A stretch of DNA of 64,000 nt, taken from Gordionus sp. m RMFG-2023 (lineage: Eukaryota; Nematomorpha; Gordioida; Chordodea; Parachordodidae). Position numbers and translations under genes: made by a program. The stretch covers positions 53,834,569 to 53,898,568 of the forward strand of contig NC_088776.1 of NCBI RefSeq assembly GCF_954871325.1, given 5' to 3'. Positions 3,235 to 50,126 of this stretch are shown in pieces; position 1 is the stretch's first letter, and each line of letters opens with the position of its first letter. Under the pieces are notes generated by a model. It searched no databases. It had not been told where the DNA came from and saw only the letters and a program-made list of their open reading frames with translations.

Positions 3235-4988
3235 GGATATTTTTTTTTCTCTTTAGCTTTCACCTTTTCTGGTGGTAAGCTCCTTCAACATCTCTCTCCA
3301 CTTTATGTTATTAATACAATCTCTTTTATCTAATTTATACTTCTTTATATTGGCTCTAACTTTATGGCCCCATTGAAGCTTTGTCCTTCCTCTTTTACGT
3401 TTGCCCATCACTTCCAAACTCTTAACTTTATTTCCTATGTAGTTCATAGGCCTTCTCATTGTGTGCCCATACCACCTAAGTCTATTTACCATTAACTTAG
3501 TCTTAATAGGCACTACCTTTAAACTACTTAGTATTCTTGTACTGCGCACTTTATCCTTTCTTGTTACCCCAGCAATCATCCTCAGCATTCTCATCTCCAT
3601 GATTTGTAGACTTCTTTCGTCTGATTCTTTGGTTGGCCATGTTTCCGAACTATATAGAATAGTTGGTTGTATTATTGAACTGTGAATTTTTTCCTTTAAT
3701 TTGTGTGGGATTCTTTTATCAAATAGCACTCCAGATAAATCCACTTTAGCCACCCTTGATTAATCTTACTTTTTATCTCTTTTTCTATTGTGCTGATTGT
3801 TTGTATAGTGGAGCCCAAATATTTGCAGCTTTCAATTGCCGATATCTGCTATTCATTTATATCAATACTCTCTGTTTCATCTCCTCCTATCACCATATAC
3901 TCCGTCTTTTCTCTATTTATTTTAATCCGTGCATTTCTAGGATATTTATCCAACTCACTAGTCTTTTTCATTTCATCCTTAGATTCGGAAAGTATCACAA
4001 TATCATCTGCAAATATCATATTCTACGGGACTGTTTGAGGTATAGACTGTGCTAATACATCTATTACTGTAATGAAGAGAAGTGGGCTGAGAGCCGACCC
4101 TTCATGAACTCCTTCGGCTATTGTGAAGCCTGCTGAAGTACCTGTTGTGCTACGGACCATTGTTGTATGGCCCATATACATATCCTGTATTATTCTTGTA
4201 TATTTTTCGGGAACATTTTTGTGGCGTAGCGCCCACCAGATAAGTTTTCTTGGGATTCTATCAAAGGCCTTTTCTAGATCGAGAAAGACCATGTGTAGCT
4301 TTTTGTTCTTTTCCCTGTATTTTTCACTCATTTGCCTAATTGCGTGGATAGCATCGGTTGTTGATCTTCCAGGCATAAATCTAAACTGAGTCTCTCCTAT
4401 TTCGATTGTATCTCTTAATTTTTTTTCTATTATTTTTTCGTATAGTTTTAGAGTGTGACATTAGTTTTATGCCCCTGTAATTTTGACAATTATTTGGATC
4501 CCCTTTATTTTTGAAGATAGGAACTAGATAGCTCTGCCTCCATTTTTGGGGAACCTCTTCATTTCCAAGTATCTTATTGTATAGATTTGTGAAGAGATGT
4601 ATTCCATCATCTCCTAATGCTTTAAGGCTTTCTATTGGAATATGGTCTGGACCCCTAGCTTTGAGTTTTTCATATTCTTGAGGCATGTGATTATTTCTTG
4701 TTGTGTTATAGGTTGTACAAGGTTTTGACAAGGGGAGTGTTCGTCTAAATGCAGTATGTGCGGATTAAAGTTGAGAAGCTCCTGAAAATATTCTCTCCAT
4801 CTACTCATTATTTCTTTTTCCTTTATTATCAATTTCCCATCTTTATTTTTGATTACTTTCGGAGCTCCGTTTATATCCCTAGAGTTCTTTTCTCGCTGTT
4901 TGGCTAATCTGTATATTTTATTTTGCCCTTCTTTGGTATGTAAATCTTCGTACATGTCATCGTATGATTTGGCTCTAGCCACCGCTTT
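3235..4988 (-). mobile_element. 5'-truncated RTE-type non-LTR retrotransposon, copy A
   Basis: Minus-strand 3' part of a LINE whose second copy lies at 36793-41494. It begins within the linker before the reverse transcriptase (RT) and ends with a very short 3' UTR; both copies end in GAGAAAAAAAAATATCC just past the stop, which fixes the 3' end at 3235. Short 3' UTRs and 5' truncation are typical of RTE LINEs. The 10-mer AATATTTTCA is found at 3221-3230 and again at 5012-5021. It may be the TSD, but about 21 extra bases at the 5' side and the AT-richness make that weak. The element sits inside the satellite-like repeat. Confidence 0.85.
3253..4982 (-). pseudogene. RTE reverse transcriptase and C-terminal domain, frameshifted
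   Basis: Read on the minus strand in several frames. 4982-4632 is the pre-RT linker, including FQELLNFNPHILHLDE and MKNSK-LG. 4731-4381 has RT motifs (LVPIFKNKGDPNNCQNYRGIKL). 4376-4023 has RT fingers/palm (MPGRSTTDAI, FLDLEKAFDRIPRKL, EGVHEGSALSPLLF). The FADD catalytic block follows at about 4025-3970 in another frame. 3753-3253 is the C-terminal domain (YSSETWPTKES, NRLRWYGHTMRR) ending at the element's stop codon. HQG in the RT motif reads HEG here. At least three frame changes mean no full protein can be made. The related copy at 40346-41287 shows the expected continuous order. Confidence 0.85.
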
Positions 4989-5224
4989 TAGTTAAAATTT
5001 ATAATCTATTCAATATTTTCATTTTCTTGTTTCACATTCTACAAATAACACTATAACTAATTTATTTTTTCCATACATCTTTCTATCTTATCCTATTAAA
5101 TTTATTCCACTCTCTTTCCATTTTCTTATTTTTCCTTTTATAAAATATTCAATAAAATATTATTCTTTAATCTCTTTATTTTGCCTTGGTATACTGTTTT
5201 TACAATTTGTTGCATTATCTCTCA
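4989..5224. other. AT-rich sequence without gene
   Basis: Right flank of RTE copy A, up to the point (about 5225) where homology with the second satellite copy resumes. Nothing recognisable. Confidence 0.5.
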
Positions 5225-19330: not shown

Positions 19331-20883
19331 ACTTAATTAGTATCATTATTAGTCATCCCCAAAACATCATATGTTTTTGATTTAATTGTTTTATTACAGA
19401 TTTCTACCACCTTTTCTATTTAAACCTTATAAACCATAGCTATTTTTATCAGTGATATAAAATCAAATATTATGGCAATGGCTAAATAATGTAGTATAAT
19501 TTAAAATTGAAATGATTATATAAATAAAGATAATAAATTTAAGTCTCCATGGACCAACATTGTCTAGATGTTCAAGATCTAGAATACAGGCCTCACTTCT
19601 TAATTCCATACCACTTTAAACATACTACTAATGTTATACTGGAAAATCAAAATCCAATTTTACAAGCTTTCATGATAGTATTAGTATTCAACTTGATCCT
19701 GCATAACCAAATAAAAATTCAAATTTTGTAAGCCTCCAGATCATATGAGCTGACACATCCTTGGCCAAGACTTCCCCCCCCCAACATTTTCTAGAATACC
19801 AGGGGTAGCCAGATTAGCGGTACAATCCGTTTTAACCTAACAAATCAATATAACGATTGCAATAATTAATTATTATGGAAAATGTTATTCCATTTTACTG
19901 AAAACAAAGAATGTCCCATAACAAATTCTATTAAAGATAATTTAATGAAGTTCTTTAATAATAATTTAGATATGAATTCCAAAAATATAAATTTATTAAA
20001 AAAAATTTTAAAACAATCTTTGATTAAAATTATAATTAAAAAATTAATAATTTCATTAACAAAACTACTTTAAAATGTTTTTTTTTAACAATGAGCAAAT
20101 ATTTTTCATACATGCCAAATTTTTATTTAACTATCCAGCTGATGTTAATTAATTTTTTTTTGATATTAAGGAAATCTTCAATCAAATTAACCCTGGACGA
20201 AGTGTATAAAGCAAATAATTTATTTATTAGACTCAACAGGAGGATTGGATGGTATTAGACCCGTCTATCTCCATGATCTTATAAATATAGACTTCTTCCT
20301 CACTTATCCTAATGCAGGCGTTGACTGATCTCTATAACCTAATAGTTAATGGAAGTATAACTCATCCACAAATTCCATTATTCTTTAGAGCCAGAATAAT
20401 TGCTTTACAAAAGCCGAAACAAGACATCCGCCCTATTTCAATAGGGGGAGTCATAAGAAGGGTTATCTAAATATTATAAGCAAGCGTATAAAACCTTCAT
20501 CATAAGAATTGCTGTTTCCTAACCAATTAGGGTGTGGTATTAAAGGGGGATATAAAACACTAGCCATGCGGCAAGGATTACTTTGGATATCTATGCTTCA
20601 GAGCATGCATTCATCTAACTGCCTTCAATACTTTAAATCAAATTTTTTAATAGAAATATTTTATGAGGTTTACCCATATTATTTAAACTATCCCCAGTTA
20701 AGCTATTTTACCCTTATAATATTACGATATGGCTAATCAAACTTATCTTTTAGAACAAAGAATACAATAAGTGTATTTACTCGGTCTATCCTTATTCTGT
20801 TTAGCTATCAATAACATCATCCAAAATATAAAAACCAATTGTAATCTCGTTATCAATGTTTGGTATTTGAATGATGCCACATT
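19331..20883 (+). pseudogene. Non-LTR-type reverse transcriptase remnant, 5' part
   Basis: Plus-strand frames read FFRARIIALQKPKQDIRPIS near 20380-20440 (compare the 'ALPK--G-RPIA-GE' RT block), LQSMHSSNCLQ and FLIEIFYEVYPYY near 20590-20680, then LFCLAINNIIQNIK and VINVWYLND ending at 20875. The last is the RT catalytic YxDD block, with Asn replacing the first Asp. Stops and frameshifts are frequent. It continues after 28339, because the hAT element at 20884 is inserted three codons past the YLND motif, counting the TSD. Open pieces at 19549 and 19882 are unassigned. Confidence 0.65.
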
Positions 20884-20944
20884 CAACGTCTACATGGCAG
20901 AAAATTTGATGGAGGCAACCCCCATCCCAAATCTACCCCTACCC

Positions 20945-20970
20945 CCCTAAAAAATTTCGCGGCCTTCGGC
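20945..20970. repeat. GC-rich palindrome in hAT left end
   Basis: CGCGGCCTTCGGCCGCG forms a perfect 7-bp stem with a TTC-type loop, in otherwise AT-rich sequence close to the left terminus. Similar GGCCTTCGGCC hairpins lie at both ends of other hAT elements here (7647-7680, 16120-16155). Confidence 0.75.
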
Positions 20971-21232
20971 CGCGATATTTGCCTTCAAGAAAATCTTATA
21001 TTAAGTCACTATTTATACCCTTACAAACATTCAGACCTGCTTTGGAAAAAAAAATTTACAAACTGATAACTATTGTTACTATCCGTTTTCAATTAACTTA
21101 TATTTAAGTAGGTAGTGCAATCTTTTCATAATTTGATTGATAATCAATTTATTTTCATAAAAATTAATATAATAGTATTAAATGAGATAACATATTTACA
21201 TTACTATAAAAAAATATCAAAAATTTAGTAAA

Positions 21233-21780
21233 AAAATATAAGATGAGTAATTTTAAAGAGGTATAGCTTGATTCTATAATTACTAATACCTTTATATTAA
21301 GTAAAAAAGACAAAATGAGTAATTTTAAAGAGGTATAGCTTGATTCTATAAATACTAATGCCTTTATATTAATTAAAAACATTCATATAGATATAACTAT
21401 TATATAAAAAAAATTTTTATGTAAATATAACTTTTATATAAAATATTAGAATAAAGAATATAGTATATTTTGCACAAGAATTATAAAAACATTTATGTAA
21501 ATATAACTATTATATAAAATATAAAATGAATAGAGTATATTTTGCACTGGAAATATAAATTTTTTTATGTAAATATAACTTTTATATAAAATATGAGAAA
21601 AAAATGAATATAGTTGCACTGGAATTATAAAAACATCTATGTAAATATAAGTTTTATATAAAATATTAAAATAAAATGAATATAATATATTTTGCACTGG
21701 AATTATAAAAACATTTATGTAAATATAACTATTATAAAATATTTAAATAAAATGAATATAGTATTATATTATGCACCGGA
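21233..21780. repeat. Two short tandem arrays inside the hAT element
   Basis: The first array has two copies of a unit of about 71 bp containing 'gagtaattttaaagaggtat' (near 21245 and 21316). The second has about five copies of a unit of about 75 bp containing 'atgtaaatataactttta' (near 21419, 21494, 21567, 21641 and 21716), each followed by 'gaatatagtatattttgcac-gga'. They lie 3' of the transposase stop codon. ORFs here are repeat artefacts. Confidence 0.75.
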
Positions 21781-21860
21781 CTAGAATGATATAAAAAACT
21801 ATTAAATTAAATTTACATTATTAAAAAGGCGTATATAATTAGCTGTGAAAAAGATATAAC

Positions 21861-24800
21861 TTATTTTATTAATAATTTAGTTAATCTTTTAGACGTAGAT
21901 GCAAATCGCGTTATAATGTCGTCTATTTTAAATCTTTCAAAAACATCAATTTCGCTGGATATTAGAAGTAAATTTTCTAAAAAGGGGTCAGAAATTTTAT
22001 TCCGCATTCTAGTTTTATTTATTTTGACTTTGCTCATCACTCTTTCGGCTGAACAAGAAGTAGTTGGTAGAGTCAATAAATATTTATATAATAAATATAA
22101 ATTAGAATAAGAATTTAATTTATTTAAAAGACGATATGGTAGTATAAATGAATATTTTATCCATTTTTTTGTATTAATTATGTTATCGTTATTGATATCT
22201 TCCTCGGTTTCATCGTTTACAATACCTTTAATTATATATAATTTTAAATAAAATATCAATAAATTACTTTCATCAATATATAACCCATCATTCTTTTTTA
22301 TTTTCAAAAGATCCTTGCAATAAATGATTGCTTGTGAATCCAAATATAAAGATCGAAAATCATTATATTCACGAGCAATATCTTGAGCATTTAATTGGTA
22401 AGTATGACAAATTTGAGATATTTGCCACCCTTCTATTCTATCATTGGCTATAATTCCAGCTGGTGTAAAAAGAGATATTTGAGATAAAAAATTTAAACAA
22501 TCATAATTAAATCTTTCATTTAAATCATTAATGATTGTATCAAGCACAGGGAAAAATATTTCCCTTTTATATCTATAATGCTAAATAATAATTTTAAATC
22601 TTTTTTTATTCAACTTGTTTTTTTTTTGTTTAACATAATTATTGAATGCTGTTTGATCAAATTTGAATATTGATTTTATATTATGCAATTCCGTTGTAAC
22701 ATTATTCTTTTTCAAATAACTGTTAGATAAGGAATGCAATTTTAAAAAAATATTATCCCCATTAGCTACATTTTAAAATTATTTATAGAAATCGTAACTA
22801 ATTTTAACCTCTTAGTCTTTGTAATTTATTTTTTGTGTGTTGTATTAATTTAGTTACCATAGCCAAATCATTACCAACTGCCTGCATTTCAATACAAGCC
22901 TCATGTGTGCATTTCAATATTTCTTTCAAAATAAATAGACTTAATATGAAATCTTCATCCTTAATTCTTGTTAATAATCCATCGGCAATAGAAGAGGTGC
23001 TTGGGTCATTAGAATCTTTTAATTCATTTAATGATGCTATAATATGTTCATAAACATCTAAAAAAATTTCTACAGCTTTATAAGATGATGACCAATTTCT
23101 AAAAAAAGATAAGTTACATTAAAAATATTATATTTACCTTGTTGTATTTTTTATTCTTTTAAGAGATTTTTTAGACTTTGTCATTTGATATTTAACAAAC
23201 ACTCCTTGACGTCTTACCCCATTCATGAAATTATATAACTCATCCAATATTCCCATTACCTTTTTCATTTCTATTTTGCATCCACAAACATGAGCAACTA
23301 CTAAATTGAGCCTATGTGCATGGCACCAAATATATATGGCTTTTGGAGCCTCTTTCAATATTAAAGCCTGCATTCCTTTGTATACTCCTCTCATATTCCC
23401 TGCACCATCCATACTTTGCCCAACCATATAATCAAGAGGAAGACCAAGATCTTTGAACTTAGAAAAAACATGTTTCTTTATATTTTCCCCGGTGGTTTCT
23501 GATGTTGTAAAAACATGGATGATCCTTTCTACAGGATGTGGATGCGGATCATCTTCTATATATCTTACAAGTAAAGCAATGCATTCTTTTTTAGACACAT
23601 CATATGTTCCATCTAATATGATGCTATAGGCACAATTCTCTTTAATTTTTTGAATAATACATTTTATTATTTTTATCTTAATGACTTCAATAATTTTTTT
23701 CACATGGCCATATGACAATAAATTTATATAAGGTCTTGAAATTTTATCTGATTTTTTTCTCCTCAATTTTTCGTTGTTATCAATGTATGCCCGTAAAGTT
23801 GGAACCGTTTTTGCCATTAATTTTATGAGGCACATAAAATTACCTTCATTCGAATTAGTGCCCCAAAAGGCTATGTTACATTTTATAAGGTATATAATGG
23901 CATCAATAATATTATGAACTATATTACGATTTTCCATTATTATATCAAGCCTATTTGATAGAAAATGATCTTGAATACGCTTATTTGCAAGCCAAGTCAT
24001 GTTGGTGTATTCACAATCCTTATGAATAGAAGATGACTCATGTCTCTCTAAGTCACGCTTAAAATTTTTCCAATTATTTACTCCAAGTTGAGTCCAAAAA
24101 GTATTGGATTTAGGGCCACCAAACATAAGACAATAAAGACAAAAGACTTTGTCTAAAGTGGTGCTATAGGATAACCAATTTCTTGGTTTGAGGGAACCAT
24201 CAATATTAACCTTTTTATAATAGGATATATTCATGCTCCTATTTAAAAGTAGAAATAATGGATGCGTAAAAATTAATAAAAATTAAATTTTTTAAAAACC
24301 TTTTGTGAGTAACAGGATATTGAAATATATTTGAACATGGCTGACATGGGCCTATGGAAATTATGAAATTAATCAAGATATTTGTCATTCTAAAGAATAT
24401 GAAATGAAAAGGGTCATTAGGCTCCTTTTTTTTATATAATTGAATAATATTTGGGCCTTTAATGTTTGAAATATTTTGGCTTGCATTGGGATTGATAATT
24501 GGATGAAAAAAAGATATAATTGGGGAATTTTCAATAACTTTGTGTGTTTGCTAATTATTATTAAAGAGTGTATAGTTTTATTTAAATTAAATACCTCATC
24601 ATTCAAAATCAGCAGATCACTGGAACTGGGCATTGTATGAGAAGATAATATAATTTGGGAATCTTCAGTAAAAGATTTGTGCTAATTATTAAATAAAGAA
24701 TAATTAAAATTTGTTTATTCATGAAAATATCTGAATATCCTCATTTATTCCCTTCAAAATTATAAAAGAAATCTTATTTAAATTAAGTACCTCATTATTC

Positions 24801-26308
24801 AAAATCAGCAGATCACTGGAACTGGGCATTGTATGAGAAGATAATATAATTTGGGAATCTTCAATAAAAGATTCATGCTAATTATTAAATAAAGAGTGGT
24901 TAAAATTTGTTTACTTATGAAAATCTTAATTTTAATAAAAATTTTATTCTTAATTAAGATATAGAAAAGTGGAAAATATTTCATAATTTATTCACTTCAG
25001 AATTATCAAACAAATCTTATTTAAATTAAGTACCTCATCATTCAAAATCACCAGATCACTGGAACTGGGCATTGTATGAGATAATATAATTTGGGAATCT
25101 TCAGTAAAAGATTTGTGCTACTTATTAAATAAAGAATAATTAAAATTTGTTTATTCATGAAAATATCTGAATATCCTCATTTATTCCCTTCAAAATTATA
25201 AAAGAAATCTTATTTAAATTAAGTACCTCATTATTCAAAATCAGCAGATCACTGGAACTGGGCATTGTATGAGAAGATAATATAATTTGGGAATCTTCAA
25301 TAAAAGATTCATGCTAATTATTAAATAAAGAATGGTTAAAATTTGTTTACTTATGAAAATCTTAATTTTAATAAAAATTTTATTCTTAATTAAGATATAG
25401 AAAAGTGGAAAATATTTCATAATTTATTCACTTCAGAATTATCAAACAAATCTTATTTAAATTAAGTACCTCATCATTCAAAATCACCAGATCACTGGAA
25501 CTGGGCATTGTATGAGATAATATAATTTGGGAATCTTCAGTAAAAGATTTGAGCTAATTATTAAATAAAGATTAATTAAAATTTGTTCATGAAAATATCT
25601 GAATATCCTCATTTATTCCCTTCAAAATTATAAAACAAATCTTATTTAAATTAAGTACCTCATTATTCAAAATCAGCAGATCACTGGAACTGGGCATTGT
25701 ATGAGATAATATAATTTGGGAATCTTCAATAAAAGATTTGTGCTAATTATTAAATAAAGAGTAGTGAAAATTTTAGGCAAATGACTTATTTTATTCTTAA
25801 TTATAATATATAAATTTTCTTTTAACAAAAGTTGAAATATTTAAATATTCTTATAATTTATTTCCTTCAAAATTGATAAAGGGCATAATAAAAATGTACC
25901 TATATATTAAAAATCTTATCTTTAATAAAAATTAAAAGTATTATGCTCAAATTATAGATGAAGAATTGGTTTCTACTAATTCACAAAATTTAAGGTTATT
26001 TTTACTTATATTTATTGTCATGAATTAAAATAATATATATAAAAAATTACTTTTTGGAAGTAAGATGTTATTGATTTTTTTTGTAACTTGGTTTCAACCC
26101 CATTTGTGATATTGAATGGAATATCTTTATTTAAGGATACCCAATTATTATCCTTTTTGATAGCTATCTTTGTAAATTTGATATCAGATAACTTGACATG
26201 AGGATGTTTATGTTTATAATGGTTATTTATTTTGTCACTTCTTATTTTAGAAGTTTTACAATTAATATAGTCACATTTGACTTTATATATTGTTTTGTTA
26301 CTTGGCAT
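21861..26308 (-). CDS. Split hAT transposase (ZMYM1-like)
   Basis: Proposed minus-strand exons: 26308-26051 (start ATG, C2H2-like finger CDYINC...HYKHKH), optional cassettes (see array), 24550-24300, 24238-23138, 23098-22809, 22765-21861. Introns 24299-24239 (61 bp), 23137-23099 (39 bp) and 22808-22766 (43 bp) are GT-AG and keep one frame; without cassettes the exons total 2,805 nt, an exact multiple of three. Domains: TTF-type zinc finger (NWLSYSTTLDKVFCLYCLMF ... HESSSIHK), first Asp in IILDGTYDVS, second in GQSMDGAGNMRG, C-x2-H block WCHAHRLNLVV, then TTR-WSSSY, and the C-terminal dimerisation domain LPTTSCSAERVMSKVKI with the catalytic Glu. One in-frame TAG (22583-22581) remains. A phase-0 GT-AG segment 22634-22581 (54 bp) would remove it if it is an intron; otherwise the gene carries a nonsense mutation. 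No promoter was identified. Confidence 0.85.
24595..25742 (-). repeat. Tandem array of six phase-0 cassette exons
   Basis: Six candidate exons, in genomic order: 24595-24681 (87 nt), 24791-24877 (87), 25034-25117 (84), 25227-25313 (87), 25470-25553 (84), 25659-25742 (84). On the minus strand each is preceded by a TAG acceptor ('aataattag' or 'aataagtag') and followed by GAG|GTA. Each is open throughout and encodes a version of SFTEDSQIILSSHTMPSSS. Spacing alternates about 193 and 243 bp, so the duplicated unit is a dimer of about 435 bp. Variants are a 3-nt in-frame deletion (one Ser), Leu/Val, Asn/Asp and Thr/Ile. All are phase 0-0, as are the donor of the zinc-finger exon and the acceptor at 24551, so any number can be spliced in. 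The first 8 codons resemble the start of the 24550-24300 exon (HKVIENSPII), suggesting origin from it. Confidence 0.8.
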
Positions 26309-28115
26309 CTAGAATAAAAATGAAATAAATATTTAGATAATATTTTTTTACTCACTGATGGCCATCAAGAATGATGGAGAATCATAATTTTATCCTTTAT
26401 TTGACGGTGGATGGCTGAATCTTAAAATTCTCCTATCTTATGAGGTGTGATTCAGAAATTAAATTTATATTTGTTTAAATGAGGGTGTAATTTTAAAATT
26501 TTCCAGTGGTTTTACAAAATATATTAAAGAAATATATATTTAGATATTTTAATATATGTGCACAATAAATTTTTATTCATTTGTATTATATTTTTAATCT
26601 AAAAAATATATTAAAATCTTTTAAAATAAATTCTTATTCATTTGTATTTGTAATTTATAATCAAAAAAATATATTCTAGACCCTTATTGTTTTTAAATTA
26701 AAATTCATAAATATACACTCTATTAACATATTTTATAAAAATAATGAAAAATTTACTGATTCAATCATCATCATATAAAGGAAATTTATTATGCACCCAT
26801 CATTGAATAAAGAAGAAAATTCTGATTACCAGTCATTCATAATGGACTATCAGCTATTAACTTATATTTTTGATAATGTTTTCTTAAAAGATTCCTATTA
26901 TATTATATGTAAGCTTAATGCATGGTCACAAAAAATATAATATTTTTTGTTATTTATGCCAAAACAATCATGGATCAATATTTCCTCCATTATACACTTC
27001 ACAATTGATTTCTTTATTTCTTAGTGTCCAACAATTTTTAGAAATGTATGATGCTTTGAAATCATAGTTTCTTTAAATTAACAATCCTAATAAATTTTGC
27101 AAATAATTGAAAACAGGCATATTTGTGATTTGCCCATTCATTTATCTTCAAATAAAGTCTGAGAAATGATATATTTTAATCATTGAAATTAGAGACCTTC
27201 ACTGGCATTGATTTCTTCATCCAGCCTAGGTCATAAGTAAAAATAATTTTCAGGCCCAGTTCATGTTTAATGGAAATCCAAACCCAAACCACATCATAGG
27301 TTTCAAAGATTATTCCCAAGCCATATCCAAAAATTTAATTTATTGTTAACAAAAATAAACAATATTTCAGTATATGGAATCACTTTGTCAATTCATTTAA
27401 TTGAAATCTTTTCTTAAATCAATAATCAAATGAGAGGAATAGATTATCTGTTCATTCTCCCAAGATTTCTATAAATATTTAGAAAAAAGGCCAAATATAT
27501 TATGGAAAATTTGATGTTATATAAAATTTATCTAATAATGAAATAAAAAATTTATCAATTCTTTTAACAAATTTTTTATCACACAATGGTTTTCACCTCT
27601 CACTTATAATTTTGTATATAATTTACACTTACCTCAAAGAATCGTTTATCATAAATAGAAATCAATTATGGGTCCAACCTGATTGCCTCACAAAAATGTG
27701 GTAATATTTACCCCATTGAAAATGATTATTTAAAAAATTATTAGCAAAAATAATTGCCATGGTTCAAAACCCAGATAACTTATTAAGTATACATATTAAG
27801 ATTAAATAAAAATAGCTTCATTCTTTATTATATTTATTTATCTATCATCAAATTAAGGAAAATGCAATTATATGCTTAAAAAATTACCTTTTTAAAATCC
27901 AAAAATGTTTCTTTATATTGTTAATTGAGTAGGATTATCTTATCATAAAAGGGATTCTTTATTCAAAAGGTCCTTATTATAAAAAAATATATATTGATAA
28001 TTTAAAATTGATACTGTGAAAATCTAAATCCCATTATGTAAATGAATTTTCTAAAAATTTAAAAAAATAAATATAGTGTATAATATTTATAAATTGACAG
28101 ATATCTTTTCTTTAA
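26309..28115. other. Upstream region of the hAT transposase gene
   Basis: AT-rich sequence between the proposed transposase start and the right subterminal repeats, about 1.8 kb. It should hold the promoter and any 5' UTR exon, but I cannot identify a convincing core promoter in sequence this AT-rich. No ORF of note. Confidence 0.4.
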
Positions 28116-28189
28116 TTGACATTTTTCAGAAAATCAACGATAATCATATCGATTATTGGATTTAAAAATATCATAATACAAGTCAAAAA

Positions 28190-28325
28190 TTACCCTCCAA
28201 AAATCAATACCTACCCCCCAAAAACAAATGCCTACCCCCCAAAAATCAATATCTACCCCCCAAAATTAATACCTACCCCCAAAATGCCAATATTTTTTGG
28301 AGGCATTTGTCTCCTACCCCCCGGC
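28190..28325. repeat. C-rich subterminal repeats of the hAT right end
   Basis: Four to five copies, spaced about 20-24 bp, of a motif like ATCAATACCTACCCCCCAAA, then CTCCTACCCCCC just inside the terminus. Multiple subterminal motifs next to the TIR are the known binding sites of hAT transposases, so a binding role is likely. The C-run strand bias is the same throughout. A weaker version (CTACCCCTACCCCCC) lies at the left end (20935-20948), and the 58212 MITE carries CTACCCCCCAACTGATGCCTACCC. Confidence 0.75.
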
Positions 28326-28338
28326 CATGTAGACACTG

Positions 28339-29100
28339 GCCACATTAATGATAAAAGCTATCGATATCATCATTTCAAATTTTCAACAACTAAATTTGTC
28401 CTTTTATAAAAAAAGTGAAATATACTAAACTAAAAATATTTCCTCCCCAATTATTTATCTTTTTACTCATAAAAGATAAAATCATTGTTCCTCAGGCCAC
28501 CAATAATAAGATCTTTAGGTATCTAAACATCGAAGACAATCTGATTAATCTTTATTCAATAGAAAATATTTTCAAAGATTTACTTCCCATCAGGCATTTT
28601 ATTTAATTTAAAAATTTTTTACTATTCCCAAAATACAAATAATTTGCATCAGATTATCTGGCGCCTTTTTATTTCTATCAACTTCTAAAATATGGGAAAA
28701 TATAAATCAATATTGGACCGACAAAATGTAGCGGACTTAGCTTAAGATTACCATTAATCTATGCTTTCGTTTGTTTTATTTGATCAATAGTAAAAAACAA
28801 AAATCTAATTTTCAAATTGATTAAATCTTTTGAGGAAACCATGTTAAACAATGCTTTGAGATAAAACATTCTTTGGCGTAATTTATCCATTTTCTAATTT
28901 ACAAAAGGATTGGTAATCTGCAATCGTGACATGCTTCATCAATATTCTACTTTCAGGCAAATGAAACACATCAGAATACTAACCTTCGTTCATTGGTAAT
29001 TAATAATAAATCAGGCCTCGAATAGTTAGAAGCTTATCCAAGCATGTTAAATAAATATATTTTGACAAATAAGGAATTTGTTATACTTTGGCCGTCAGGC
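28339..29100 (+). pseudogene. Reverse transcriptase remnant, 3' part
   Basis: It continues the RT interrupted at 20883: after one TSD copy the frame reads ATLMIKAIDIIISNFQQLNL, which fits the region following the YxDD motif (D-TL------ V-----F---L-L--N--KCE). KKSEIY follows after a small frame change. Beyond about 28620 the match fades (FRYLNIEDNLI at 28515 may be the next block) and only AT-rich sequence follows. Confidence 0.55.
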
Positions 29101-39740: not shown

Positions 39741-41478
39741 AAGGGGAGGTAACAAATCATACAAAGAATTATGGTGGAGGAATGAAGAGGTACAAACCAC
39801 TATACAGGAGAAAAAAGCCCTTTAAAAAATATGGTACAAATCCAAAAACCCAGATGACAAGACAAGATACAAAAAATCCAAGAGATTAGCTACAAAGGCG
39901 GTGGCTAGGGCCTAATCTATGGCATACAATGACATGTATAAAGAACGATGGAAAGAATATTTTCAGGAGCTTCTCAACTTTAATCCCCACATACTACATC
40001 TAGACGAAGACTCCCCATGTGAAAACCTTGTACAACCTATAACAGAACAAGAAATAATCACATGCCTCAAGCATATGAAAAACAACAAAGCTAGGGGTCC
40101 AGACGATATTCCAATAAAAAACCTTAACATCTCCTCACAAATCTGTACAATAAATACTAGGAAATGAAGAGGTTCCCCAAAAATAGAGGCAGAGCTATCT
40201 AGTTCCTATCTTCAAAAATAAAGGGGATTCACACAATTGTCAAAATTACAGGGGCATAAATGTCACACTGTCTACAATATACGAAAAAATAATAGAAAAA
40301 AGATTAAGAGACATAATCGAAATAGGAGAGACTCAGTTTGGCTTTATGCCTAGAAAATCAACAACTGATGCTATCCACGCAATTAGGCAAATGAGTGAAA
40401 AATACAGGGAAAAGAACAAAAAGCTACACATGGTCTTTCTCGATCTAGAAAAGGCCTTCGATAGAATCCCAAGAAAACTTATCTGGTGGGCGCTAAGTCA
40501 CAAAAAGGTTACCGAAAAATATATAAGAATAATACAGGATATGTATATGGGCCATACAACAATGGTCCGTAGCACAATAGATACTTCAGCAGGCTTCACA
40601 ATAGCCGAAGGAGTTCATCAAGGGTCGGCTCTCAGCCCACTTCTCTTCATTACAGTAATAAATGTATTAGCACAGTCTATACCTCAAACAGTCCCGTGGA
40701 ATATGATATTTGCAGATGATATTATGTTACTTGCCGAATCCAAGGATGGAATGAAAGAAAGATTAGTGAGTTGGATAAATATTCTAGAAAAGCATGGACT
40801 AAAAGTAAATAGAGAAAAGACGGAGTATATGGTGATAGGAGGAGATGAAACAGAGAGTATTGATATAAATGAATGGCAGATATCGGCAATTGAAAGCTGC
40901 AAATATTTGGGCTCCACTATACAAACAAACGGCACAATAGAAAAAGAGATAAAGAGTAAAATTAATCAAGGGTGGTTAAAGTGGAGATCTTTATCTGGAG
41001 TGCTATTTGACAAAAGAATCCCACACAAATTAGGGAAAAATTTACACTTCCATAGTCCAACTATTCTATATAGTTCGGAAACATGGCCAACCAAAGAATC
41101 AGACGTGAGAAGTCTACAAACTATGGAGATGAGAATGCTGGGGATGATTGCTGAGGTAACAAGAAAGAATAAAGTGCGAAGTACAGGAATACTAGGAAGT
41201 TTAAAGATAGTGCCCATTAAGACTAAGATAATTGTAAAGGTGGTATGGGCATACAATGAGAAGGCCTATGAATTACATAGGAAATAAGGTTGAGAGTTTG
41301 GAAGTGATGGGCATACTTAAAAGAGGAAGGCCAAAACTCAATGGGGCCATAAAACTATAGCCAATATGAAGAAGTAATCTATAAAATAGAAATATCTTAA
41401 CTATAAAAGAGATTGTATAAATAACATAAAATGGAGAGAGATAAGGAGCTTACCACCAGAAAAAGGTGAAAGCTAAAG
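39741..41478 (+). pseudogene. RTE linker, reverse transcriptase and C-terminal domain
   Basis: After the insertion the linker resumes (YKELWWRNEEVQ), then has a stop near 39820. 39919-40167 holds the pre-RT region (FQELLNFNPHILHLDE, NNKARGPDDIP). 40346-41287 is an open 313-codon block with RT motifs MPRKSTTDAIHAIRQ, FLDLEKAFDRIPRKL, GVHQGSALSPLLF and MIFADDIMLLAE (catalytic FADD), then the C-terminal part (CKYLGSTIQTNG, ILYSSETWPTKES). The last part (41288-41478) is in other frames and ends at the family's stop. The catalytic residues are intact but frameshifts and the deletion make the element inactive. Confidence 0.88.
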
Positions 41479-46794: not shown

Positions 46795-46874
46795 CTAAAA
46801 GGTTCCCTGTGATCTGGGTCTAGAATAGGATCACCGTCTCCTCGACGGGGTGTAAAAACCACTTAAAGAGGTTG

Positions 46875-49800
46875 ATGTCAGGAAGGGCATCCGATTGTAA
46901 AAACCATGCTACAAAAATTTCCCTATGGTCAACAAAGCATGGGCGGGGTACAGCCCAAAGTACCCCGTGGGCCTCCTCATCCGCCTACGACAAAAATAAG
47001 GATGGGAAACCTGGTGGAACCACTATTCATGAAAATGAAACCTATGACGGCCATAAACGACCTGATAAAAAGTGGAGAAACCAGTTTACGGGTGATCGAG
47101 TTAGGGTCGCGACATGGAATGTTGGGAGTATGACGGGAAGAGCGGGAGAAGTCGTCGATGTATTGCACAGAAGACATATAGATGTGTGCTGCATACAGGA
47201 GACTAGATGGAAAGGAAATGGGACCAGAATAATTGGCAAGACTAGCGAAAAGTATAAATTCTTTTGGCAAGGAGGTAATGATGGTAAGGCTGGAGTTGGG
47301 GTATTGGTTGCGGAGAAATTGGTAGACAAAGTAGTCGAAGTGAGAAGGCTAGACAACCAGATAATGGTTATCAAGATGATTATTGGTAGAAAGCTATATA
47401 ATATGATCTCGGCATATGTTCCTCAGGTTGGAAGAAGTGAAGAAGAGAAAGATGTATTTTGGGACAGTCTATTGGGGGTGACATCGAGACTGGCAAATGA
47501 AGAGGGGATTATCCTGGCTGGCGATCTGAATGGACATGTGGGAGCGAGTAGTGAGGGTTATGAAGGAGTACATGGAGGGTTCAGTTACGGCATGAGAAAT
47601 TTGGAAGGAGAGAGGATTTTAGAATTTAGTGATGCTATGGATATGATTGTTTGTAATACAATGTTTAAGAAAGAATCAAATAAGCTGGTGACTTATAAGT
47701 CGGGTAGTACCAAAAGTGTTGTGGATTACTTGTTATTAAGGAGATGTGATCGATGTATAATTAAAAATGTGAAAGTGATACCGGGAGAGGAATGTATAAA
47801 TCAGCATCGACTAGTTGTAGGAGATCTCACTCTTAAAGGTGCCAGGGTCACTAAAAGAAAGTTTTTCCCAAGGCTGAAGGTTTGGAAATTGAAGGAGGAG
47901 AATGCTAGACGTCAATTCAATATGGCATTGGCGATTAGGGAGGCGGAGGTGGCACAAGCATCTGGGGTGAATGACAAGTGGGAAGCCATGAAGAAAGCTT
48001 GGGTAATGACAACTGAGGAGGTATGTGGATGGACAAAAGGGCCGCCTAGACATAAGGAGACTTGGTGGTGGAGCCCAGAAGTAGCGAAAGCCGTGGATGA
48101 GAAACGGAGGTGTTTCAAAGTATGGTATAATAGCAAAGAAAATAGTGATAATGATATTTACAAGATGGCTAAAAGAAATGCTAAGAAATTAATAGCGAAG
48201 GCTCAAGAAGAAAAAAGACACGAGTTTGCTAAAGAAATGAAATGCGCTGATGGAATTGGAAATATGGTTAGAATGGCAAAACAGATGTCAAAAAAGAGGC
48301 AGGATGTGATAGGTGTAAAGTGTTTGAAAAATATGGAAGGAAAAATGACGATTGATAGTAGTGGTATTAAGAACACCTGGAAGATTTACATGAAAGGACT
48401 TTTGAATGAAGAAAATGAATGGAATAATAATATTAGTTGTGCAAAGGTAGAAGGTCCAGGGTGTAAATTTGGCAAGGACGAGATAAGGAGAGCAGTGAAA
48501 AAGATGAAGAAAGGGAAGGCATCGGGTTTAACGATGGTGGTATCAGAGATGTTTAAAGGTTCTGATGATTTAGGGATTGAATGGTTAATGAATTTAGCAA
48601 ATCAGATTGTCACAGAAGGTACTATTCCCGAGGACTGGCGAAGAAGTATAATTATACCAGTATACAAGGGGAAAGGTGATCCTTTAGATTGTGGGTCTTA
48701 CAGAGCTATTAAACTCTTGGAACATGCAATGAAAGTATTTGAGAGAGTGTTAGAAAAGCGGATAAGGGAACAAATCAAAATTGATGAAATGCAGTTTGGT
48801 TTTACATCGGGAAAAGGCACGACAGATGCAATTTTTGTGGTGAGACAAATTCAGGAGAAGTATCTTGCGAAGGAAAAGAAACTCTATTATGCGTTTGTTG
48901 ATTTGGAGAAAGCATTTGATAGGGTGCCGCGTGAGATTACAAGATGGGCCTTGAGAAAATCCGGTGTGGAGGAATGGTTAGTTACCGCAGTGATGGCAAT
49001 GTATGTTGGAGCACAAACAGCAGTACGGACGGATCATGGTGATAGTGACAGCTTTGAGGTGAAGGTAGGACTTCATCAAGGATCCGTGCTGAGTCCATTA
49101 TTATTTATCTTAGTAATGGATGTGGTGGCTAGAGAAATGCGTGAAGGACTTCCCTGGGAGATATTATATGCAGATGACCTTGTATTAATGGCAAACAGTG
49201 AGGGAGAATTGAGGGATAAAGTTAGTAAATGGAAGATGACTATGGAAGCAAAGGGCCTGAAAATGAATGCATCAAAAACAAAGGTGATGATTGGTGGGGA
49301 AAATCTAAAGATAGAAGAATCAGGTAAGTGGCCTTGTGGTGTATGTGGGAAAGGAGTTGCTAGAAATTCTATCCAATGCACCAGATGCCAGAAATGGGTA
49401 CATAAAAGATGTAGTGGGAAAAAAGGCAGTTTGATGTTAGAAAGAATGACCTTTATTTGTAAAACATGCATGAAAGGGATACATAATAATGATAACCTAA
49501 AAAATGGTGGTCTGGATATTGGCAATGGGTTAACCCTAGAAAAAGTGGATAAGTTTTGTTATTTAGGTGATATGCTAAACGCAGATGGTGGTGTAGATTC
49601 TGCTGTTGTTGCAAGGATCAGACAAGCTTGGAAGAAGTTCAGAGAGATGTCGTCTATTCTTACAAATAAAAAAGTTTCTCTGAAGTTAAAGGGGAAAGTT
49701 TACGTAAGCTGCGTGAGGAGTTGTTTAGTTTATGGCGGTGAAACATGGGCAATGAAAGCAATTCACGAAGCCAAATTAGAAAGAACAGAGATGAGGATGG

Positions 49801-50126
49801 TTAGATGGATGTGTGGGGTATCTCTGAGAGAGAGAAAAACTAGCAAGGAATTGCGAGCAAGATTAGGTATAGAAATGATTGGTATGGTAATGCGACGAAA
49901 TAGACTAAGATGGTTTGGGCATGTGGAACGTATGACAAGAGATGACTGGGTAAAGAGATGCACAATGATGGAAGTAGGAGGATCAAGACCTAGAGGAAGA
50001 CCCAAGATGACGTGGACAAATGTGATAGCGGCGGATATGAGAAGCTTGAATCTTACAAGTATTGATGCTCAGGACCGTCAAAAATGGAAAAGAAAAATCA
50101 GAGGGAAAACTGGCCTACCCGGGTAA
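46875..50126 (+). CDS. RTE endonuclease-reverse transcriptase with PHD-like finger
   Basis: 1,083 codons from ATG 46875; the open frame also has a TTG one codon earlier. Residues about 76-320 are an apurinic-type endonuclease: VATWNVGSMTGR, CCIQETRWKG (catalytic Glu about 109), GDLNGHVG, VDYLLLRR, QHRLVVGDL. Residues about 590-810 are the RT: IIPVYKGKGDP, FVDLEKAFDRVP, GLHQGSVLSPLLF and ILYADDLVLMA, with the catalytic Asp-Asp at about 767-768. Residues about 820-867 form a Cys4-His-Cys3 finger (CGVC, CTRC, H-x2-C, CKTC), inserted between RT and the C-terminal domain. The C-terminal domain (to 1083) contains NRLRWFGHVERM and RGRPKMTW. No stop or frameshift. Slight departures from the usual motifs are SYRAIKLL (often YRGI) and SGLTMVV (often G-DG). 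It would nick target DNA and reverse-transcribe the element RNA. Confidence 0.95.
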   Translation: MSGRASDCKNHATKISLWSTKHGRGTAQSTPWASSSAYDKNKDGKPGGTTIHENETYDGHKRPDKKWRNQFTGDRVRVATWNVGSMTGRAGEVVDVLHRRHIDVCCIQETRWKGNGTRIIGKTSEKYKFFWQGGNDGKAGVGVLVAEKLVDKVVEVRRLDNQIMVIKMIIGRKLYNMISAYVPQVGRSEEEKDVFWDSLLGVTSRLANEEGIILAGDLNGHVGASSEGYEGVHGGFSYGMRNLEGERILEFSDAMDMIVCNTMFKKESNKLVTYKSGSTKSVVDYLLLRRCDRCIIKNVKVIPGEECINQHRLVVGDLTLKGARVTKRKFFPRLKVWKLKEENARRQFNMALAIREAEVAQASGVNDKWEAMKKAWVMTTEEVCGWTKGPPRHKETWWWSPEVAKAVDEKRRCFKVWYNSKENSDNDIYKMAKRNAKKLIAKAQEEKRHEFAKEMKCADGIGNMVRMAKQMSKKRQDVIGVKCLKNMEGKMTIDSSGIKNTWKIYMKGLLNEENEWNNNISCAKVEGPGCKFGKDEIRRAVKKMKKGKASGLTMVVSEMFKGSDDLGIEWLMNLANQIVTEGTIPEDWRRSIIIPVYKGKGDPLDCGSYRAIKLLEHAMKVFERVLEKRIREQIKIDEMQFGFTSGKGTTDAIFVVRQIQEKYLAKEKKLYYAFVDLEKAFDRVPREITRWALRKSGVEEWLVTAVMAMYVGAQTAVRTDHGDSDSFEVKVGLHQGSVLSPLLFILVMDVVAREMREGLPWEILYADDLVLMANSEGELRDKVSKWKMTMEAKGLKMNASKTKVMIGGENLKIEESGKWPCGVCGKGVARNSIQCTRCQKWVHKRCSGKKGSLMLERMTFICKTCMKGIHNNDNLKNGGLDIGNGLTLEKVDKFCYLGDMLNADGGVDSAVVARIRQAWKKFREMSSILTNKKVSLKLKGKVYVSCVRSCLVYGGETWAMKAIHEAKLERTEMRMVRWMCGVSLRERKTSKELRARLGIEMIGMVMRRNRLRWFGHVERMTRDDWVKRCTMMEVGGSRPRGRPKMTWTNVIAADMRSLNLTSIDAQDRQKWKRKIRGKTGLPG

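Follow-up and report, generated by a model that had tools for sequence, protein, structure and literature searches.

A tandem array of putative phase-0 micro-exons inside the transposase gene of a hAT transposon

Introduction

The window, by which we mean the whole stretch of 64,000 nucleotides that was analysed (C2:53834569-53898568 in Gordionus sp.; GC content 26%), carries six consecutive short open segments, here called cassettes, on the minus strand inside a predicted transposase gene. The question raised by this locus is whether the cassettes are exons of that gene or repeats within an intron whose open frames are incidental. An initial annotation of the window had read them as frame-preserving exons that could enter the protein in variable number, and this interpretation is partly supported by the analysis reported here.

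Results

The element and its copies in the genome

The cassettes lie within a mobile element whose limits were set from its ends and from a multi-copy alignment.

20884..28338, minus strand: whole hAT element (7455 bp)
20876..20883, no strand: target-site duplication GCCACATT (8 bp), low-coordinate side
28339..28346, no strand: target-site duplication GCCACATT (8 bp), high-coordinate side

Judged by its C-terminal dimerisation domain (PF05699, 24.2 bits against a cut-off of 21.4), its ends and the 8-bp duplication, this element is a DNA transposon of the hAT superfamily. The gene had been assigned to the hAT transposases from the outset, and that assignment was borne out by the domain and the duplication together with a DUF4371 core. 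The terminal inverted repeats start with a CAGTG-like motif (CAGTGTCTACATGGC and CAGCGTCTACATGGC), where the window copy has CAACG, and the inverted ends of the window copy are near-perfect (CAACG/CAGTG...TCTACATGGC). Of eight copies checked at both ends, five have matching 8-mers (the window copy, L029, L031, L032 and the copy at C1:33.76 Mb); among the other three, the flanks of L013 and L034 have been exchanged, and those of L030 do not match.

The genome searched comprises 287 Mb in 267 contigs, with C1-C5 measuring 32-94 Mb. Near relatives of the window element (family A) account for at least 40 copies of the array, a lower bound taken from 42 rows, in which two copies are split over two rows each, and from the best 40 of 229 candidates scored. 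As read from its sequences, the family is young and has recently been active.

The transposase gene outside the array

The array is flanked by the following predicted parts of the gene.

26051..26308, minus strand: exon 1, with a C2H2-like zinc finger, ending in phase 0 before the GT at 26050
25743..26050, minus strand: intron 1, whose 3' part is spacer-like and probably a decayed unit
24300..24550, minus strand: exon 2, starting in phase 0 after TAG
23138..24238, minus strand: exon 3, with the transposase core (DUF4371)
22809..23098, minus strand: exon 4 (predicted)
21861..22580, minus strand: last exon, with the hAT dimerisation region; its junction with exon 4 is provisional

The best Pfam match of exon 1 is zf-C2H2_aberr with an E value of 0.0006, which is below the cut-off, as are the matches to two weaker C2H2 models. 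A BED zinc finger is frequent among hAT elements, though not universal; no BED model stands among the Pfam matches listed for exon 1. Exon 3 is stop-free in 35 copies with a full-length match at 100%, besides which there are partial or mutated copies, one of them with a stop. A search by sequence of solved structures with exon 3 as the query found no relative and gave two weak matches to a ribosomal protein. With the splice sites chosen, exon 4 joins the last exon out of frame, and a short extra exon between the two is likely.

Traces of the repeat extend beyond the array on both sides. The 3' part of intron 1 aligns to the cassette spacers with a local score of 79, against a maximum of 51 in 300 shuffles, and a further cassette unit probably once stood upstream of the array. 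The opening stretch of exon 2 is likewise cassette-like (80% over 40 nt).

The cassette array

Each of the six cassettes is an open segment that begins and ends in phase 0, with TAG before it and GTA after it.

25659..25742, minus strand: cassette 1, 84 nt, HKSFIEDSQIILSHTMPSSSDLLILNNE
25470..25553, minus strand: cassette 2, 84 nt
25227..25313, minus strand: cassette 3, 87 nt
25034..25117, minus strand: cassette 4, 84 nt
24791..24877, minus strand: cassette 5, 87 nt, equal to cassette 3 in sequence
24595..24681, minus strand: cassette 6, 87 nt

The coordinates, dinucleotides, lengths and phases in the initial annotation proved right base for base, as did its placing of the array between a zinc-finger exon that ends in phase 0 at GT (26050) and a downstream exon that begins in phase 0 after TAG (24551). 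It had also stated that the cassettes differ in length by 3 nt only, and this difference is a single TCT, present or absent at one site. Retention of introns 0-5 would bring an in-frame stop within 24 codons, and intron 6 (44 nt), if retained, would stay open yet shift the frame.

The units of the array are closely related to one another. Cassettes 3 and 5 are identical, cassettes 2 and 4 are one base apart, and the spacers of each of these pairs (2/4 and 3/5) also differ by one base. The layout is X-Y-X-Y-X-Z, in which the X-Y unit is a dimeric repeat of 436 bp. We therefore rejected the use of the six cassettes as independent evidence, because the 436-bp dimer has been duplicated; given the near-identity of cassettes and spacers, the keeping of the frame within the window array is weak evidence when taken alone. 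A chance satellite without relation to the gene was also rejected, since a sister family has homologous cassettes.

Cassette number varies among family A copies

Comparison of cassette number with other copies of the element, as proposed in the initial annotation, was carried out on 29 family A copies including that of the window. Twenty of these were taken with about 8 kb each (L010 is cut by a contig end and L016 has internal deletions) and nine around the array only. Six cassettes were found in 22 copies, four in 4, eight in 2 and five in 1. Altogether, 168 of the 169 cassettes in these copies are open and in frame. The only broken one carries a 1-nt insertion and belongs to the five-cassette copy (L035, 1/5 broken), which has lost one unit and whose first cassette combines the start of cassette 1 with the end of cassette 2. 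One cassette of L036 has an in-frame addition of 6 nt.

The two eight-cassette copies (L029 and L030) and two of the four-cassette copies (L032 and L033) show no differences from the commonest sequence in the 1.4 kb flanking the array. The other two four-cassette copies are defective, with the start of exon 3 missing in L031 and exon 1 missing in L034. Target duplications match for one eight-cassette copy (L029) and for two four-cassette copies (L031 and L032), which indicates either that four-, six- and eight-cassette elements have all moved or that the array changed after insertion. At C5:5.93-5.94 Mb, two copies in opposite orientation, one with six cassettes and one with four, have swapped target duplications. 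This is the pattern expected of an inversion by recombination, and exchange among copies is thus visible in the sequence.

Homologous cassettes in family B and a second array in subfamily C'

The core exon of sister family B is 92-93% identical to that of family A at the amino acid level. Three cassettes were counted in L038-L041, L043, L058 and L059, two in L056 and one in L057. They are homologous to those of family A, measure 87 nt (84 nt for the third) and are in phase 0, and the first two have the TAG and GTA borders. The third has a GC donor rather than GT in 5/5 copies, and in 1/5 its AG acceptor is gone; GC donors are a minor class of splice donors. All changes of cassette length between the two lineages are of 3 nt, namely TCT in A and GAT in cassette 3 of B, and both the A cassettes and B cassettes 1 and 2 have kept their splice dinucleotides over about 20% divergence.

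Family C is more distant (64-65% amino acid identity). At the same gap of the gene it has single segments of 84, 60, 78 and 54 nt, each of them open, in phase 0 and flanked by AG and GT; they were chosen by eye and are less certain. The GC content of these segments is 22-35%, as compared with 10-23% in their introns. The 54-nt segment is nearly equal to its following intron in this respect (22.2% and 22.5%), and its acceptor is lost in L049. The 60-nt segment, present once in C, is repeated in tandem in subfamily C': L052, L053 and L047 have about six phase-0 copies each, spaced at 125-126 bp in L052 and less regularly in L053 and L047, and two could be made out in L054. Between C and C', another of the segments shows a difference of exactly 3 nt. 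The C' repeat is a second tandem amplification, of another segment at the same gap, in carriers that are partly broken.

Homology between the A/B cassettes and the C micro-exons was considered and rejected as unproven, with p values of 0.068 for A6 against C segment 3 and 0.61 for B1. The start of exon 2 gave p 0.012 against C segment 3 as one of 15 comparisons, and the DNA local scores lay inside the shuffle range. The counts exclude L042 (exon 3 match only in the stretch), L046 and L055, in which no exon 1 and no cassette, respectively, could be located, and the second cassette of L038, whose limits were not set by the scripts.

Frame-broken cassettes in related elements had been named in the initial annotation as evidence against splicing. 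They were found in L058 (3/3) and L052 (2/6) as well as in the five-cassette A copy (1/5); the other cassettes of the 29 family A copies are intact. Decay after insertion would explain the frameshifts in all three elements.

Exon or intron DNA

To compare the cassettes with coding and with intron sequence, we used one sequence per family for the rate tests (L041 for B, L044 for C and L052 for C'). Between A and B, dN/dS of the cassettes was 1.01-1.27, or 0.61-0.76 with the third B cassette included (small counts), and that of exons 1 and 2 was 0.24 and 0.11. By Fisher's test, the contrast is significant against exon 2 only (p 0.034), with p values of 0.23 against exon 1 and 0.096 against both; a Fisher test on doubled counts is invalid and was discarded. 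Substitutions amount to 20-23% in the cassettes and 20-25% in the spacers. The dN/dS check suggested in the initial annotation thus gave a value of about 1, with a substitution rate equal to that of the spacers; these two results and the recent 436-bp duplication weaken its argument that a neutral satellite would not be expected to keep all of these features. Between C and C', dN/dS was 0.39-0.65, 0.87 and 1.53 for three segments (0.8 pooled); for exon 1 it was 0.3 and for exon 2 it was 0.55. The two shortest introns are conserved about as well as the exons, and this comparison does not discriminate.

Insertions and deletions were counted in five units with complete spacers (A1, A2, A3 and two of L041), in an alignment-dependent test. 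One event, of 3 nt, was found in the 87 columns of the cassettes, and 12 events were found in the 203 columns of the spacers, of which 8 have lengths not divisible by 3. This contrast is suggestive only (binomial p 0.064 when every event is counted, 0.058 when only non-triplet events are). In a simulation with 17 random changes, a cassette was still stop-free in 43-47% of cases.

The GC content of the cassettes is 32-35% in A, 36-39% in B and 38-40% in C', as compared with 12-18% in the spacers, 24-31% in the predicted exons and about 16% in the other A introns. Exon-like GC and the restriction of indels between lineages to 3 nt favour real exons. Spliced retrocopies were also sought with two junction patterns, each allowing at most 3 mismatches, and none was found. 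There were 40 matches to the cassette-cassette pattern, all listed with one unspliced intron-end sequence, and the exon 2-exon 3 pattern gave 0.

These results bear on the possibility that the array is an intronic minisatellite of pseudo-exons, in which an ancestral exon would have been duplicated together with its splice sites while the mRNA joins exon 1 to exon 2. The frames would then look whole owing to recent duplication, as the identity of cassettes 3 and 5 allows, and the dN/dS near 1, the substitution rate that cassettes share with spacers, the freely changing cassette number and the third B cassette, with its GC donor in 5/5 copies and its acceptor loss in 1/5, all agree with it. It does not account for the confinement of indels between the A and B lineages to 3 nt, for a GC content that stays exon-like in A, B and C', or for splice dinucleotides held in the A and the first two B cassettes over their divergence. 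We consider this explanation unlikely, although it is the strongest competitor to coding exons.

Discussion

The explanation we favour, and consider moderately probable, is that the array consists of tandem phase-0 coding micro-exons that form a weakly constrained linker inside the transposase gene of a recently active hAT element. The segments between the zinc-finger exon and the core would be short coding exons with phase 0 at both ends, and we infer that they are spliced and translated. The array may grow and shrink through unequal recombination or gap repair, most likely through recombination between repeats, and the steps would be mostly of 436 bp (two cassettes), with a one-cassette step seen once. 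Because every unit has its own acceptor, its own donor and whole codons, the reading frame survives any cassette number. The cassette peptides, which contain Ser and Asp/Glu, would probably serve as a disordered spacer, for which keeping the frame would count for more than the exact sequence. From phase symmetry alone, optional inclusion of cassettes is possible.

A stronger form of this explanation is that of a self-adjusting modular linker, in which interchangeable phase-0 exons, 0-8 of them, would be spliced into the protein and which would have arisen independently in at least two hAT lineages from different micro-exons. We regard this form as rather doubtful.

In this form, the cassette modules could also be short motifs for binding, present in repeated copies. 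Several of the peptides end in hydrophobic and then acidic residues (LVILNDE, IIPLLDDE, IITLNQDEE), the order of residues that is typical of SUMO-interacting motifs. In a post hoc comparison, which was not counted as evidence, 6/11 peptides fit this motif and 5/11 do not, with no single fit significant (shuffle p 0.10-0.27).

It is also conceivable, at a low probability, that the array acts as a splicing switch, in which weak micro-exons and spacers with stops would cause many transcripts to end early and so yield the zinc finger and cassettes without the catalytic core, a product that could be a repressor. In the P-element, splicing variants of the transposase gene act as a repressor through one retained intron. 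Splicing could decide which protein is made in both systems; the hAT gene has an array of potential cassettes where the P-element has one retained intron. The early stops reached on retention of introns 0-5 are in line with such a switch, as is the phase-0 symmetry that lets any subset of cassettes join. However, retention of most introns in any gene would have the same effect, and near-identical copies differ in cassette number.

Finally, hAT elements are noted for repeated binding sites, and it is very improbable that the cassettes are internal repeats of this kind, bound by the transposase or a host factor and with incidental open frames: array length does differ among copies that are identical over the surrounding 1.4 kb (L029, L030, L032 and L033 as compared with six-cassette copies), but the array is more than 2.5 kb from both element ends, the usual subterminal place is held by other repeats within the element (21223-21762 and 28200-28285), and phase, splice sites and GC would be left unexplained.

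The window element shares with the zinc-finger/DUF4371 branch of hAT the dimerisation domain, the DUF4371 core, the CAGTG-type ends and the 8-bp target duplication, and differs from it by a row of putative phase-0 micro-exons, repeated in tandem, within its N-terminal linker. In the portions of the open-licence literature consulted, tandem micro-exons were not found described for any hAT transposase.

Tandem exon duplication is familiar from host genes such as Dscam, titin and LPA kringle IV-2. As judged from their sequence, the cassettes have the features by which such duplications are recognised, namely homologous neighbours, intron-like spacers and the same phase. The two systems have in common a repeat unit of exon plus intron, a symmetric phase and, probably, a change in number by unequal exchange. 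In contrast to the host genes, the hAT array is mobile, so that one genome holds many loci with differing array lengths. If the cassettes are spliced, tandem exon duplication would here be caught in mid-process, with exon numbers of 4, 5, 6 and 8 among near-identical mobile copies, and one could trace, at many loci of one genome, how exons arise, spread and disappear. The hAT transposase would then be one in which the spacing of domains is set by array length and perhaps also by splicing.

A further parallel is offered by insect genes. The bicycle and megacycle genes found in aphids and phylloxera contain numerous small exons that share a phase and show internal tandem duplication, and bicycle internal exons are almost all in phase 2 (PMC9168663); in effector genes of phylloxera, exons have been duplicated into motif repeats (PMC7376646). 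These genes and the array have several features in common, namely small exons that share one phase, internal duplication in tandem and fast protein evolution. The hAT cassettes are in phase 0 rather than phase 2, and they belong to a transposase gene, whereas the bicycle genes encode putative effectors.

Nested and possibly rearranged copies of the hAT element

The flanks and insertion sites of other copies of the hAT element were examined at three loci.

C5:5.928-5.941 Mb: a six-cassette copy (L013) and a four-cassette copy (L034) in opposite orientation, about 0.4 kb apart; their ends are the loci L072, L073, L075 and L076
C3:16.752-16.766 Mb: two four-cassette copies, one (L031) inside the other (L033)
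C1:89.102-89.110 Mb: a copy with eight cassettes (L030)

When the flanks at both ends of each C5 copy were compared, the 8-bp target duplications were found to be swapped between L013 and L034, a pattern such as would be left by an inversion through recombination between the two copies. Exon 1 is missing from L034. At C3, the inserted copy lies within the 3' end of L033, and the interrupted element shows an 8-bp overlap around it. The target duplication of L031 is CTATTATA, and the same site is present in the window element at the matching position, 21168-21175. Comparison of the two flanks of the eight-cassette copy gave no match as a target duplication; a further element end lies about 0.8 kb from this copy.

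Structure of the window element

Subterminal tandem repeats lie close to both ends of the window element, in the region that typically holds the binding sites of hAT transposases.

21223-21762 and 28200-28285: subterminal tandem repeats, with periods of about 72 bp and about 21 bp

Within the predicted transposase gene, at the junction between exon 4 and the last exon (junction region 22581-22808), an in-frame TAG separates an open stretch from the last exon, which points to either an additional intron or a disrupted frame there in this copy. The end of intron 1 (25743-25880) resembles the cassette spacers in sequence and is probably left over from a unit, since lost, that stood upstream of cassette 1.

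Elsewhere in the window, the open frames at 3256-4991 and 40187-41284 look like LINE-type reverse transcriptases, judging from the starts of their translations alone, and a 1100-codon open frame occupies 46824-50123.
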